A program made the translations under genes and the position numbers. A DNA stretch of 64,000 nucleotides from Qipengyuania sediminis (GTDB lineage Bacteria > Pseudomonadota > Alphaproteobacteria > Sphingomonadales > Sphingomonadaceae): assembly GCF_004358425.1 (NCBI RefSeq), contig NZ_CP037948.1, positions 124,001 to 188,000 on the forward strand. Direction: 5' to 3'. The notes under the pieces are model-generated. The model saw only the letters and a list, made by a program, of their open reading frames with translations. It was not told where the DNA came from and did not search any database. Positions 22,029 through 26,303 of the stretch are shown piece after piece (within the stretch, counting starts at the first letter, position 1; each line of letters starts with the position of its first letter).

Positions 22029-22208
22029 TCAGCCCGAAAGCCCGCCCGGCCGGGTGAACGCGTAGTATAGGACGTAGAACCACCCGAAGACGCCGTGGAT
22101 CGCCGCCCAGACGATCGACTTGTTCAGCGACCAGCTCACCGCGACCGCGATCGCGCTGCCGAGGCCGACGCCGATGCGCGCCGCCTCTCCGCCGTGGCTG
22201 CCGGTCAC
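22029..22208 (-). CDS. 59-residue small membrane protein of the psp operon
   Basis: A GTG at 22208 overlaps the stop of the upstream gene as GTGA. It opens a 59-codon frame: a hydrophilic start with GSHGGEAARIG, one helix (VGLGSAIAVAVSWSLN), a short loop, then an aromatic second hydrophobic segment (HGVFGWFYVLYYAF). No family is recognised. The coupled start, lack of spacing and membrane character support a real gene. It is short enough to be missed by length cut-offs. Confidence 0.6.
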   Translation of the reverse strand: MTGSHGGEAARIGVGLGSAIAVAVSWSLNKSIVWAAIHGVFGWFYVLYYAFTRPGGLSG

Positions 22209-22441
22209 AGGTCCACTCCGCTGGCGATGGCTTCCAGCTTGCGGATGCGCTCCTTGAGATCGCTAAGCTCGATGCGCGCGGCGCCCAGCTGGCTGGAATC
22301 GGTTGCCGGGCGCGACCCCCGCGCCTCGAGCTCGCGGCTCTTAAGCGCCAGCCAGTCCTGCCAGCCCTTGAGCAGCGCTGCGACGACCGTGATCAGCCCG
22401 ATCAGCGCGGCGGCGGCGATGACGATGGTGGGTTCGGCCAT
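22205..22441 (-). CDS. PspB-like small membrane coiled-coil protein (copy 4)
   Basis: A 78-residue protein with an N-terminal helix (TIVIAAAALIGLITVVAAL) and a charged coiled coil ending LSDLKERIRKLEAIASG. The last segment matches the ERI-x-x-LE motif shared with the neighbouring small proteins and PspC. It starts 23 bases after copy 3 and overlaps the 59-residue gene. The role is inferred to be part of a PspB-like envelope-stress assembly. Confidence 0.75.
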   Translation of the reverse strand: MAEPTIVIAAAALIGLITVVAALLKGWQDWLALKSRELEARGSRPATDSSQLGAARIELSDLKERIRKLEAIASGVDL

Positions 22442-22464
22442 CGAACGTCTCCCTTCGCTCCCAG

Positions 22465-22752
22465 TCAGCCCGGCTGGTCGCCGCGCAGCGCCTCGATCTC
22501 GCGCGCGATCCGGCGGGTTTCGTTCGCATCCACAGAATTTCCATCGGTGGCGATGCGTTCGAGGACCTTGATCCGCTCGCGCAGCTCCTGCAGCTCCCGT
22601 GTCTGCACCGCGCTTTCGTCGACGGTCGAGGCCGGCCCGCTCTCCTTGCGCGCGCGCTTCTCGATCCGTCCCATCGCGCGGTAACGCTCGGTCAGCACAT
22701 TGGTCGCGCAGCCCACCAGCACGATCAGGAAGATCATGGTCCACAGGTTCAT
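22465..22752 (-). CDS. PspB-like small membrane coiled-coil protein (copy 3)
   Basis: 95 residues: an N-terminal hydrophobic helix (MNLWTMIFLIVLVGCATNVL) followed by a basic stretch and a coiled coil with ELRERIKVLERIATD and a final REIEALR. The shared motif ERI-x-x-LERI-x-TD places it with copies 1 and 2. Its ATG overlaps the stop of copy 2 (ATGA). The Cys in VGCA is not followed by lipobox-like spacing, so a lipoprotein is unlikely. Confidence 0.78.
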   Translation of the reverse strand: MNLWTMIFLIVLVGCATNVLTERYRAMGRIEKRARKESGPASTVDESAVQTRELQELRERIKVLERIATDGNSVDANETRRIAREIEALRGDQPG

Positions 22753-23093
22753 TGCGCCCGATCCTTCTCGATCCTGAGCCGGTCGATCTCATGCGTGAGC
22801 TGGAAGCCGCTGTCGGTCACGATCCGCTCGATATTCGCGAGGCGATCCTTTACGGAGCCAAGCTCAGCCTGCAGCACGGCGTTCTCCTGCGTCAGCAGGC
22901 TGACACGCTGATCGGTCTGCGCGTCCCGCTTGGGGTGGAGCGACTGGCCCCACATCCCTTCGAGCGGATAGCCCGCCTGGATGCGCATCTTGGTCGTCTG
23001 CACCCAGCCCCAGACCCCCGCCAGCGGGATCAGGATGCCTGCACCGATAAACCAGGGGAGGTACTGGATGACGATATCCGCCCCGTCCATCAC
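22749..23093 (-). CDS. PspB-like small membrane coiled-coil protein (copy 2)
   Basis: 114 residues with one helix near the N terminus (YLPWFIGAGILIPLAGVWGW), a linker, and a heptad-rich coiled coil (SLLTQENAVLQAELGSVKDR) that ends LANIERIVTDSGFQLTHEID. ERIVTD-x-G is identical in spacing to copy 1. Two ATGs (23093 and 23090) are possible; the first overlaps the copy 1 stop. Confidence 0.78.
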   Translation of the reverse strand: MMDGADIVIQYLPWFIGAGILIPLAGVWGWVQTTKMRIQAGYPLEGMWGQSLHPKRDAQTDQRVSLLTQENAVLQAELGSVKDRLANIERIVTDSGFQLTHEIDRLRIEKDRAQ

Positions 23094-23404
23094 ACCCGCT
23101 CCTTCTTCACGAGGCTGAGCGGCACGCCCGCGTGCTGATCCTCGACCCGGCGGTGATCGCGCAGCGCCTCGATCTGCGTCGCGACGTCGTAACCGCGATC
23201 GGTGACGATGCGTTCGAGCACGCGGACGCGATCCTCGAGTTGCTGCACCCCGCTCGAATATTGCGCGGCCTTTTCGGCGGTGGTCTTGGCCGCCGCTTCG
23301 GCATGAATGCGCGCGATCTTCTGTGCGTGGCTGCTCCAGATCTTTATGATCGGAATGCTGAGCGCCATAAGCGGTATCAAAACCCAGATGGTATCGGGTC
23401 CCAT
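23090..23404 (-). CDS. PspB-like small membrane coiled-coil protein (copy 1)
   Basis: 104 residues: one N-terminal helix (TIWVLIPLMALSIPIIKIW), a basic helix, then a coiled coil with QLEDRVRVLERIVTDRGYDV and QIEALRDHRR. This is the clearest PspB-like paralogue and lies 27 bases after pspC. The shared motif with PspC and the next three proteins suggests tandem duplication followed by divergence. Confidence 0.8.
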   Translation of the reverse strand: MGPDTIWVLIPLMALSIPIIKIWSSHAQKIARIHAEAAAKTTAEKAAQYSSGVQQLEDRVRVLERIVTDRGYDVATQIEALRDHRRVEDQHAGVPLSLVKKERV

Positions 23405-23431
23405 GGCTTGAATTCCCCTGTTTTCTCCGCC

Positions 23432-23812
23432 TCAGCGCAGCCGTTCGATCTCGGCGGTGAGGCGCGGATTGCTGCTGACGTAGAAGTTTTCGACCTCGGC
23501 CAGGCGGCGGTCGACATCCTTCATCCGGCTGCGGATTTCGCGCGCGGTGCGCTTGGGGCTCTGCCGTACGCCCTGCCAGTACTTCGTCTCCTGCGGGTCA
23601 TGGTAGAGGTGCGGCGGCTTCTTGTTGAGGAGCAATCCGGCGATGAGATAGGCCGGCAGGAATACGCCGGCGGCGGGGGTCAGACATGCAATGACCAGAG
23701 CCATGCGTATCCAAAACACATTGATCCCGGTGTAGTCGGCAATGCCGGATGCGACGCCGAGCAGCTTGGCGTTGTGCTTGTCGCGGTAAAGCGTGGTGCG
23801 GGGGGTGTTCAC
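23432..23812 (-). CDS. pspC: Phage-shock protein C
   Basis: The 126-residue protein has the PspC domain at residues 6-70: LYRDKHNAKLLGVASGIADY, a re-entrant hydrophobic segment, and one transmembrane helix (FLPAYLIAGLLL). The C-terminal half is a coiled coil ending VDRRLAEVENFYVSS and EIERLR. PspC works with PspB as membrane sensor of the PspA/PspF switch. Its ATG overlaps the pspB stop as ATGA. Confidence 0.94.
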   Translation of the reverse strand: MNTPRTTLYRDKHNAKLLGVASGIADYTGINVFWIRMALVIACLTPAAGVFLPAYLIAGLLLNKKPPHLYHDPQETKYWQGVRQSPKRTAREIRSRMKDVDRRLAEVENFYVSSNPRLTAEIERLR

Positions 23813-24108
23813 CGGCGGGCCTCCTTCTTCTTCTCGGCGATCAGGTTTTCGAGCTCGCGGAGCTGCTGGTTATCGGCTTCGAGATTGCTGACGAGGCGCG
23901 CCGGGCGGAAATCGGCATTGTCGCTCGCGACCAAACGCTCGACGGTGTCCATGCGCTCGTCGAGGCGCTTGGCGAGATTGTAGAGCTCTTCAAGCAGCAT
24001 CTCGTCGTCGGTGGTGATGGAGGCGGCGGTCTTCCACTTGGTGATGTAGTGGAAGATGATCCACGGCAGAGCGATCGCGAACGCTAAAATGGCCAAGATA
24101 TCTTCCAT
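23809..24108 (-). CDS. pspB: Phage-shock protein B
   Basis: The 99-residue protein begins with a membrane helix (ILAILAFAIALPWIIFHYI) and continues as a charged coiled coil with LLEELYNLAKRLDERMDTVE. This is the PspB layout, slightly longer than the E. coli protein (about 74 residues). PspB and PspC hold PspA at the membrane during stress, freeing PspF. It lies three bases after pspA. Confidence 0.92.
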   Translation of the reverse strand: MEDILAILAFAIALPWIIFHYITKWKTAASITTDDEMLLEELYNLAKRLDERMDTVERLVASDNADFRPARLVSNLEADNQQLRELENLIAEKKKEARR

Positions 24109-24111
24109 GGT

Positions 24112-24804
24112 TCACCCCTCCTTGCCCAGGTCCCCGGGCTTGCCTAGCGCGCGCTTCATTTCAGCGAGTTCGTCGTCGATGGCGTCGGCGCCTTCGAGCG
24201 CGGCGATTTCCTCGGACAGGCTCGGCTTGCCGAGCGCGCCTTCGATCTGCAGCGCATCCGCCCGCCCTTCGGCGTAATCGACGCGGCGTTCCAACTGGTC
24301 GAAGCGGTTGAGCGCATCGTCGACCCGTTCGTTGGTCATCAGGCTGCGCAGCTTGACGCGGTTCTCCGCGCTTTCCAGCCGCGCGGCGATCGCTGTCTGG
24401 CGGCTCCGCGCCTCGCGCAACCGGTTCTGCAGCTTGGCGATGTCCTGCTCATAGGCGCGTAGCGCATCGTCGAGCACGGCGATCTCAGCCTTGAGCTGGT
24501 CCGACATATCCGCCGCCTTCTTCTTCTCGACAAGCGCCGCGCGGGCAAGGTCCTCGCGATCCTTGGACAGCGCGAGCTGTGCCTTTTCGGCCCAATCGGC
24601 CTGAAGCCGGTCCAATTTGACCGAATGGCGGTGCATCTCCTTCTGGTCGGCGATGGTGCGTGCCGCGCTGGCCCGGACCTCGACCAGAGTCTCCTCCATC
24701 TCAAGGATGATCATGCGGATCATCTTTTGCGGATCGTCCGCCTTGTCGAGCAGCTCGTTGAAATTGGCAGCGAAGATATCGCGGGCGCGGTTGAATATGC
24801 CCAT
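24112..24804 (-). CDS. pspA: Phage-shock protein A
   Basis: 230 residues of the PspA/IM30 (ESCRT-III-like) family. The start MGIFNRARDIFAANFNELLD gives the amphipathic helix, followed by DPQKMIRMIILEMEETLVEV and the long coiled-coil hairpin. PspA coats stressed inner membrane and inhibits PspF when free. The ATG at 24804 has GGAG nine bases upstream. The same frame is open upstream to an ATG at 24975 that overlaps the previous stop, so an isoform with 57 extra Pro/Arg-rich residues is possible. Confidence 0.93.
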   Translation of the reverse strand: MGIFNRARDIFAANFNELLDKADDPQKMIRMIILEMEETLVEVRASAARTIADQKEMHRHSVKLDRLQADWAEKAQLALSKDREDLARAALVEKKKAADMSDQLKAEIAVLDDALRAYEQDIAKLQNRLREARSRQTAIAARLESAENRVKLRSLMTNERVDDALNRFDQLERRVDYAEGRADALQIEGALGKPSLSEEIAALEGADAIDDELAEMKRALGKPGDLGKEG

Positions 24805-24971
24805 CAAGGGTACTCCGTTGAGCGGGAAGCCCGAGCCGGCGGCCGCCGGGTTGCGGGACGGTGTGGGGCTGCGGCGAATGCGCTCGACTTCGGCCTCGAG
24901 GCGTGAGCTGCGTGGGCTCGCGCGGCCCGGGGCGGGCTCGGGCGCGAGCGGGTCGAAATCGTCGCCCTGGA

Positions 24972-25124
24972 TCATGCCAGCACGACCGACTCGCCAAGCG
25001 CCGCAGTCGCCATTGGCGGGGTCACTGCGATCTGCGTCGAAGCCATCACGAACACCCCCATCGCAAGAACCGAGGCAAGCGCTGCCCGGCCGACCGGGGA
25101 GGCGAAGAAGCGGCGGTCGAACAT
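24972..25124 (-). CDS. Small exported or membrane protein, first gene of psp operon
   Basis: A 50-residue protein: basic start MFDRRFFASPVGR, a hydrophobic helix (AALASVLAMGVFVMAS), then a short neutral tail ending in VVLA. The ATG lies 26 bases from the predicted sigma54 start site and has AAAGGA before it. Its TGA overlaps an in-frame pspA-extension ATG at 24975. No family is recognised; position suggests a role in, or translational control of, the phage-shock response. Confidence 0.65.
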   Translation of the reverse strand: MFDRRFFASPVGRAALASVLAMGVFVMASTQIAVTPPMATAALGESVVLA

Positions 25125-25160: not shown

Positions 25161-25177
25161 TGCAACCCCCGTGCCAA
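25161..25177 (-). promoter_or_regulatory. Sigma54 promoter of the psp operon
   Basis: The minus strand reads TTGGCACGGGGGTTGCA, a full match to the -24/-12 consensus (TGGCAC-N5-TTGC). Transcription would start near 25149, shortly before the first small gene. The divergent gene encodes PspF, the enhancer-binding activator for exactly this type of promoter. Upstream binding sites for PspF should lie between 25180 and 25260 but no clear repeat was identified. Confidence 0.88.
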
Positions 25178-25265: not shown

Positions 25266-26303
25266 ATGGAGAGGGAAAACCAGTTTATCGGGCAATCGAC
25301 CGCGTTCCTGGATGCGGTAGAGCGGACCAGCCGCGCCGCGCCGATGGAGCGCCCGGTGCTGATCATCGGCGAACGCGGGACCGGCAAGGAACTGATCGCC
25401 GAACGCCTGCACCGCCTGTCCTCTCGCTGGGGCGAACCGCTCATCACCATGAACTGCGCCGCGCTCCCGGAAACGCTGATCGAGGCGGAGCTGTTCGGGC
25501 ACGAGCAGGGCGCCTTCACCGGGGCTACCAAAGCCCGGGCCGGCCGGTTCGAGGAAGCCGACAAAGGCACGCTGTTTCTCGACGAACTGGGCACGCTCAG
25601 CATGGGCGCGCAGGAACGGCTGTTGCGCGCGGTCGAATATGGCGAGGTGACGCGGATCGGCTCATCTCGCCCGATCCGCGTCAATGTGCGGATCGTCGCC
25701 GCGACCAATGAGGATTTGCCTGCAAAAGCCGCGCGTGGGGGTTTCCGCGCCGACCTCCTCGACCGGCTGAGTTTCGAGGTCATCACGCTTCCGCCGCTCC
25801 GCGTTCGCGAGGGCGACGTCGCGGTCCTGTCCGATTACTTCGGACGCCGGATGGCGGCGGAGCTCGGCTGGGAGCGGTGGCCGGGCTTCGCAGCCCATGT
25901 GGCCGACGACCTTGCCGCCCACCCCTGGCCCGGCAATGTCCGCGAACTGCGCAATGTCGTCGAGCGCTCGGTCTATCGCTGGGAGCGGGAGGAGGAGCCG
26001 ATCGGCCACGTGCAGTTCGATCCCTTCGACAGCCCGTGGAAGCCCGTCGCGCCTGCCGACGCACCAGCCGTCGCAGGCACCGCGCCCGCGGCGCCAGCCC
26101 CCGCCGCGCCGGGCTATGACTCGATCGCCGATTTGCGGGGGGCGGTGGACGCGCATGAGCGGGCGATCCTGCTCCACGCGCTTGGCAAGCACCGCTGGAA
26201 CCAGCGGCATACCGCCAAGGCGCTCGGCCTCAGCTACGACCAGCTGCGCCATTGCATTCGCAAGCATGGCCTGGGCGATGGGTCGGGGGGCGCGGGCGGA
26301 TAG
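25266..26303 (+). CDS. pspF: PspF-type sigma54 activator
   Basis: The 345-residue bacterial enhancer-binding protein has an AAA+ domain without any N-terminal receiver domain, as in PspF. Walker A GERGTGKE is at 35-42, the sigma54-contact loop GAFTGA at 82-87, Walker B is TLFLDELG, and a Fis-type helix-turn-helix lies at the C terminus (RHTAKALGLSYDQLRHCIRK). The linker is unusually Ala/Pro-rich (about 258-285). The start at 25266 (MERENQF) matches the family better than an in-frame start at 25239. Confidence 0.95.
   Translation: MERENQFIGQSTAFLDAVERTSRAAPMERPVLIIGERGTGKELIAERLHRLSSRWGEPLITMNCAALPETLIEAELFGHEQGAFTGATKARAGRFEEADKGTLFLDELGTLSMGAQERLLRAVEYGEVTRIGSSRPIRVNVRIVAATNEDLPAKAARGGFRADLLDRLSFEVITLPPLRVREGDVAVLSDYFGRRMAAELGWERWPGFAAHVADDLAAHPWPGNVRELRNVVERSVYRWEREEEPIGHVQFDPFDSPWKPVAPADAPAVAGTAPAAPAPAAPGYDSIADLRGAVDAHERAILLHALGKHRWNQRHTAKALGLSYDQLRHCIRKHGLGDGSGGAGG

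Follow-up and report, generated by a model that had tools for sequence, protein, structure and literature searches.

Comparing the phage shock protein (psp) operon of Qipengyuania sediminis with those of related genomes, we show that it is extended 3' of pspC by an ordered series of old and divergent paralogues, an extension shared by most of the members sampled from its GTDB family, the Sphingomonadaceae. The operon lies in a stretch of 64,000 nucleotides (nt) of contig NZ_CP037948.1 (positions 124,001 to 188,000), hereafter the window, to which all coordinates refer. Each of their products (X1 to X4 in the window) has a hydrophobic segment at its N-terminus, and the predicted helical region after it closes with a module that shows homology to the PspB C-terminus and, in X1 and X2, to the C-tail of PspC. 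As the best model of their function, we propose, at about even chances, a hetero-oligomeric PspB/PspC-like platform that would show PspA-docking tails. In this conserved stress system, the way in which PspB and PspC pass PspA to the membrane is still to be explained. Where a lineage has split and multiplied the PspC tail and the PspB scaffold, it provides natural variants of the docking segment: residues common to these variants indicate what is recognised by PspA or PspB/C, and comparing losses among related genomes reveals which subunits go together.

The array and its distribution

On the minus strand of the window, nine consecutive open frames run from 25124 to 22029: a leader gene, pspA, pspB, pspC, X1, X2, X3, X4 and X5. 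The positions and order of these genes agree with an earlier sequence-only reading of this DNA, as does its description of the four genes 3' of pspC as encoding small proteins with one predicted transmembrane (TM) helix and a helical region, followed by a 59-residue membrane protein. X1 (104 residues; 23090-23404, minus strand) consists of a TM helix, a coiled coil and LEDRVRVLERIVTDRGYDVATQIEALRD; X2 (114 residues, GTG start; 22749-23093, minus strand) of a TM helix, a GYPLEGMWG linker, a coiled coil and a PspC-type tail; X3 (95 residues; 22465-22752, minus strand) of a TM helix and a PspB-like LRERIKVLERIATD segment; and X4 (78 residues; 22205-22441, minus strand) of a TM helix and a C-terminal LKERIRKLEAIASGVDL. 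The GYPL...WG stretch of X2 directly follows the TM helix and is invariant in 17/17 aligned orthologues. No X copies were found outside the operon in this genome, where the X2 protein and the X1 and X3 alignments match only inside it.

The arrays that we compared come from 81 loci, namely the window and 80 named loci (the best 80 of 251 confirmed relatives in a search with the X1 alignment), which include Erythrobacter, Qipengyuania, Porphyrobacter and Novosphingobium. The protein AOL22920.1, to which we return below, is presumably also from Erythrobacter. In the 77 loci counted, after omission of four without a full gene set, there are three (5 loci), four (17), five (34), six (14), seven (4), eight (2) or nine (1) X genes, a count that holds for X1-bearing arrays, since the loci were found through X1. 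With four X genes, the window has one of the shorter arrays (four or fewer are present in 22 of the 77).

The sequence-only reading had suggested a serial duplication, for which, at least as a recent event, the data give no support. A FastTree phylogeny of 411 X proteins (90 columns) contains not a single pair of same-locus sisters. The proteins fall into 18 groups, each with at most about one copy per locus, with X1 first and X4 last in the array; support for these groups is uneven (0.41 for X1, 0.82 for X4, 0.99 for the main X2 group), and X3 is split over several of them. Identity within arrays has a median of 28% and a maximum of 51% (889 pairs), and group medians between loci are 40-66% in the eight largest groups. 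The absence of same-locus sisters and the low identity within arrays thus rule out recent tandem amplification and indicate that the duplications are old, and the differences in copy number seem to reflect ancient paralogues that were gained or lost. Median ratios of non-synonymous to synonymous substitution rates (dN/dS) are low, at 0.13-0.38 by group (8-40 pairs per group). Gene order shows just 3 inversions in 886 ordered pairs, relative to a rank derived from the same data.

When the operon is mapped across the order, such arrays prove typical of the window's family, and the operons of other families mostly end at pspC. An X2 query, which also detects X1-like paralogues, finds matches in 114/149 genomes of the family. 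In a draw of 196 genomes from the order, the X1 alignment matches 161 and PspC 184. The 113 genomes of the window's family in this draw all have PspC, 112 have an X1-alignment match and 109 have one in at least two places (hand count); of the remaining 83, 49 have a match, mostly weak and in a single place, where PspB itself may be what is matched. In a draw of 289 genomes from the class, the X1 alignment matches seven, four of them within the family, and PspC 32. All of 20 further family regions inspected carry X genes, one to six in number, and 18 carry at least three. By comparison, 15 of 20 regions from other families of the order are without X-type genes 3' of pspC (two are cut by a contig end), and one region has a second classical PspB there (L188). 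Among the class loci outside the family, 12 of the 14 that were readable out of 24 fetched have no such gene 3' of pspC; in the reading of class loci, 13/28 were skipped where the PspC pattern failed.

A few loci outside the family show other arrangements. In four loci of one sister family of the order (L180-L183), the genes after pspABC encode first a small second PspC that has no C-tail and next one tailed X-like protein, so that PspC domain and tail reside on separate genes. Two loci of one genus (L145, L146) have two extra genes 3' of pspC, one encoding a PspC-type tail and the other an X1-like TM helix with a classical PspB ending. Together with L118 (1465-1954), they represent a two-extra-gene arrangement of another alphaproteobacterial family, which resembles either an intermediate stage of the array or a separate beginning of one.

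Beyond these draws, the X1 search returns 3419 proteins at E<=0.001, probably with paralogues. Among the 120 matches listed, most are nameless or 'hypothetical protein' and a few bear the name 'Phage shock protein B' in UniRef, so the annotation of X1-type proteins stands to benefit.

The C-terminal module

In the window, PspB (99 residues versus 74 in Escherichia coli; 23809-24108, minus strand) scores 66.9 bits with PF06667 (cut-off 25.6) and 82.4 bits with TIGR02976 (cut-off 51.7), and PspC (126 residues, GTG start; 23432-23812, minus strand), which has a C-terminal tail motif, scores 119.1 bits with TIGR02978 (cut-off 104). The motif that the sequence-only reading had listed is exact in its five entries, LERIVTDRG (X1), IERIVTDSG (X2), LERIATDGN (X3), LEAIASG (X4) and VENFYVSSN (PspC), but the list omitted PspB itself, which carries RMDTVERLVASDN; the EIxxLR ending described along with it is missing from X4 and PspB.

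That reading had also suggested comparing profile hidden Markov models, which we did with hhalign, using family profiles from which length outliers were omitted; one truncated X3 was set aside at a later stage. Probabilities among the X1, X2 and X3 profiles are 98.7-99.8%, and no reversed profile exceeds 1.6%. For X4, the values are 88-93% against X3 and against the middle paralogues, but about 1-3% against X1 and X2 proper. These comparisons support a common ancestry of X1-X4 and a shared C-terminal module, with X4 tied more weakly to the rest than X1-X3. For X1-X3, generic coiled-coil likeness is ruled out by the reversed-profile and shuffled controls, the first 28 residues being left in place in the latter.

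Does this module derive from PspB, as had been suggested? Homology to PspB is found, in varying strength, but X2 is nearer to the C-tail of PspC, and X1 matches both, for which reason we refer to a PspB/PspC-tail module. In hhalign, the PspC of the family is matched by X2 with 91-95% (reversed about 3%) and by the middle paralogues with 66-79% (reversed about 8%). The family's own PspB is matched by X2 with 12-50% and by X3 with 7-9%, and the PspB of E. coli by X1 with 63%, by X3 with 48% and by X2 with 13% (reversed 1-3%); the link between X1 and PspB is thus visible through E. coli PspB and the curated models, not through the family's own PspB.

The curated models agree. NCBIfam scans covered the window and 16 of the 81 X1 proteins, the window and 16 of the 73 X2, 16/52 middle paralogues, the window and 15 of the 79 X3, and the window and 15 X4, and PspB and/or PspC models are the commonest matches in X1, X2, X3 and the middle paralogues. 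At E<=0.01, 17/17 X1 orthologues match both TIGR02976 (PspB) and TIGR02978 (PspC), whereas X2 orthologues match TIGR02978 in 13/17 cases and PspB in 1/17, the X2 of the window aligning to positions 77-121 of the 121 of TIGR02978. The middle paralogues match PspC in 5/16 and PspB in 3/16 cases. TIGR02976 is matched by 4/16 X3 orthologues (best 3.4e-9), the X3 of the window being without a match, and PspB by 1/16 X4 orthologues. This lone match may stem from a sequence of L084, because the X4 alignment (A6) includes a probable X3 (L084:7254-7505) in place of the true X4 of that locus, which was omitted; the same sequence is also within the X4 group of 81 scored below. In the window, X1 reaches 21.3 bits with TIGR02976, below the curated cut-off of 51.7, and X2, X3 and X4 have no match to it. 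A Pfam scan of the window proteins brought none of X1-X5 or the leader to a cut-off, and neither PF06667 nor the PspC domain PF04024 was matched in X1-X4, TIGR02978 being matched in the C-tail only. One X1 orthologue of another genome has 23.5 bits with PF06667, under its cut-off of 25.6. No convincing relatives of X1 or PspC were found in the PDB.

Finally, we scored the proteins against outside profiles, derived from sequences beyond the family, namely 37 PspB C-termini and 31 PspC tails (31/34 PspC proteins passed the tail pattern) and seeded with E. coli; two genomes are counted twice in these sets (L132/L177, L151/L171). Counted as passing were scores above the 99th percentile of shuffles. 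X1 passes the PspB C-terminus and the PspC tail in 81/81 cases each. X2 passes the former in 63/73 (median 4.9 bits) and the latter in 73/73 (median 15.3 bits), X2p in 37/40 and 33/40, the middle paralogues in 44/52 and 36/52, X3 in 67/81 and 1/81, the X4 group in 81/81 and 59/81, and the rare X0 in 3/3 and 0/3. Since the family's own PspB passes the PspC-tail profile in 57/78 cases, the two tails are themselves related. The homology of X1-X4 to PspB in the wide sense exceeds what composition explains and is weakest for X4. The X module is thus found at the C-terminus of PspB as well as in the PspC tail; X2 is of the PspC-tail type, X1 fits both and X3 fits PspB only.

These matches bear on two other readings of the array. 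According to the first, the X proteins are alternative PspBs, each of which would pair 1:1 with PspC as an interchangeable sensor, tuning the response to specific stresses without contacting PspA. They have the architecture of PspB, X1 (17/17) and X3 (4/16) match PspB models, and the repertoire varies from 3 to 9 members in 77 loci; however, X2 is closer to the PspC tail than to PspB, and the kept order and ends of the array look more subunit-like than option-like, which makes this reading somewhat improbable. According to the second, which we consider quite unlikely, the X tails are decoys or brakes that rival PspC for PspA and dampen the response by negative feedback. X1 and X2 do have PspC-tail-like segments, and X levels would climb with PspA if the promoter is common, yet a brake would not require several distinct subunits in a kept order.

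Promoter and neighbouring genes

The operon is preceded by a sigma54 promoter, TGGCACGGGGGTTGCA (25161-25176, minus strand), with 12/12 consensus bases, and by a divergent gene for the sigma54 activator PspF (25266-26303, plus strand; TIGR02974 460.8 bits, cut-off 443.55). A divergent pspF above the curated cut-off and a sigma54 site before pspA, the two marks of a PspF/sigma54 psp operon, are thus both present. A site with 10-12 of 12 bases is found within 600 nt of pspA in 74/74 loci, the window included, versus 2/74 shuffles. With pspA (24112-24804, minus strand; TIGR02977 269.5 bits, cut-off 242.95), the PspA, PspB, PspC and PspF of the window all pass their NCBIfam cut-offs. Gene junctions were defined by the first start codon no more than 30 nt before the preceding stop, a rule biased toward overlaps; of 532 such junctions, 400 overlap, 86 are 0-30 nt and 43 are 31-80 nt long, and three are longer. 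The architecture of a psp operon under a sigma54 promoter, as read earlier, holds up, and the tight spacing makes it likely that the leader through the X genes form a single transcript.

The leader (50 residues; 24972-25124, minus strand) has a single hydrophobic segment with a positive N-side. A homologue lies 5' of pspA in 70/78 loci, and in 59 of these 70 its product ends in E-I/L/M-A; that of the window ends in VLA. The charges suggest an N-in topology, in which the tail would be periplasmic, and the C-terminus is a possible recognition signal. At the other end of the operon, X5 (59 residues; 22029-22208, minus strand) is a membrane protein of an unrelated small family (57-62 residues, core SWSLxKSIxWA...GWFYV...TRPGG), which is present in 44/78 loci. 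It has no match in the Pfam and NCBIfam scans, and hhalign finds no likeness to any of the other families, which rules it out as a further PspB. A second PspC-domain protein is encoded elsewhere in the genome (G000:C1:1387184-1387342 (L002), open frame of 183 residues).

Possible roles and known systems

In E. coli, interaction with PspA and induction both depend on the leucine-zipper tail of PspC, and PspB self-associates and binds PspC via membrane regions (PMC3068692). In Yersinia, the C-terminal cytoplasmic domain of PspC binds PspA in the on state (PMC5596341). As X1 and X2 bear a PspC-type tail on a PspB-like carrier, we infer that they are extra PspBC subunits. In the platform model, X1-X4 would all be extra subunits of the PspB-PspC inner-membrane sensor and would join PspB and PspC via TM and coiled-coil contacts, so that several PspC-like tails would be exposed to the cytoplasm. 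Membrane stress would make these tails accessible and draw PspA from PspF, the freed PspF would fire the sigma54 promoter and yield more of every component, and the tails would keep PspA at the membrane. Differences in the TM and linker regions, of which the conserved GYPL-W-G in X2 is one example, may give each subunit a distinct position or input, which would explain why the order is fixed rather than the copies being interchangeable, and X3, which has no PspC-tail signal, may be a structural subunit. In every X group, the net charge is higher on the C-side of the TM helix than on the N-side. A more tentative possibility is that, in this family, the PspA-docking tail of PspC was spread over up to nine ordered, non-interchangeable single-TM carriers, which together with PspB and PspC would form a platform nucleating an ESCRT-III-like PspA assembly, the gene order setting stoichiometry or assembly.

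Several observations weigh against the platform model or the homologies behind it. X3 has no PspC-tail signal and that of X4 is weak, for which reason some members need not bind PspA. The tail of E. coli PspC was treated as putatively periplasmic, with a second topology possible (PMC3068692). The net charge behind the TM helix is little or not at all positive in X2p (-0.45) and X4 (0.42), just 79-80% of X2 and X2p pass the TM threshold, and single-chain AlphaFold2 models are low-confidence helices with predicted template modelling scores of 0.28-0.31. The X2 query has no match in 35/149 family genomes. In hhalign, X1 reaches 1-3% with the PspC and 1-2% with the PspB of the family. A full-length PspB profile performs more weakly than the C-terminal one, being passed by 81/81 X1, 40/73 X2, 23/40 X2p, 13/52 middle paralogues, 24/81 X3 and 56/81 X4. 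On the PspC-tail profile, where real X2 proteins have a median of 15.3 bits and the 99th percentile of shuffles is 2.6, reversed X2 proteins still have a median of 5.2 bits; composition or periodicity thus accounts for some of the X2 score.

This last value would also fit a generic convergence of coiled coils without common ancestry, as would chance-like matches to other proteins and models: haemagglutinin HA2 (E values from 0.17 upwards), the model of an IS1182 transposase in 8/17 X1 (best 0.0015), and Npun_F5560 in 6/17 and VPA1267 in 5/17 X2. However, the latter three are all weaker than the best PspB or PspC match, the PspB/PspC models are the most frequent, the reversed-profile and shuffled controls oppose convergence, and there are possible intermediates outside the order, all of which renders it hardly credible. 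It is also unlikely that the X proteins are an effector scaffold that guards the membrane directly and without a signalling role, as PspBC do against mislocalised secretins, even though the PspBC of Yersinia suffice against the toxicity of the latter (PMC5596341).

Parts of this picture are already in print. Ravi et al. (2024; PMC11237479) mention, in a single line, 'PspB duplicates in the operon', with AOL22920.1 as example, and a 'divergent C-terminal PspB' fused to PspC, a remark with which a common PspB/PspC-tail module agrees; the available text gives no array, order or distribution. The available text of Popp et al. (2022; PMC9239133) does not mention tandem PspB. In Zymomonas, ZMO1062-pspA-pspB-pspC are up-regulated in xylose media (PMC8645129) and pspA-pspC under ethanol (PMC3495753), ZMO1062 and pspA appear in a temperature table (PMC8237431), and a review repeats some of these results (PMC11186258); the available parts of these four papers make no mention of genes 3' of pspC. 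Searches of open-licence papers for pspA, pspB and pspC with AlphaFold, or for pspA and pspB with Novosphingobium, found none, nor did we find a description of an ordered X array in that literature. While PspB duplicates in psp operons are therefore known, an ordered array of this kind seems to be new to the open-licence papers searched.

In its divergent pspF and its pspABC order, the operon of the window resembles pspF-pspABCDE of E. coli (NC_000913), in which, however, pspD and pspE occupy the place of the X array after pspC, and no gene is annotated between pspF and pspA. With PspB (PF06667, TIGR02976), X1-X4 share the N-terminal TM helix, the cytoplasmic coiled coil, the R-[IVM]-x-x-L-E-x-[IL] motif and the location in a psp operon, but those of the window fall below the curated cut-offs and are without the classical LDAExPxWR ending, the tail of X1 and X2 being of the PspC type. 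With the C-tail of PspC (TIGR02978, positions 77-121 of 121), the X proteins share, as read by eye, the pattern R-[LV]-x-x-[IVM]-E-x-x-V-T-[SD]-x-x-[FY]-x-[LV]-x-x-x-[FI]-x-x-L; unlike PspC, they have no PspC domain and present this tail on a separate single-TM carrier.

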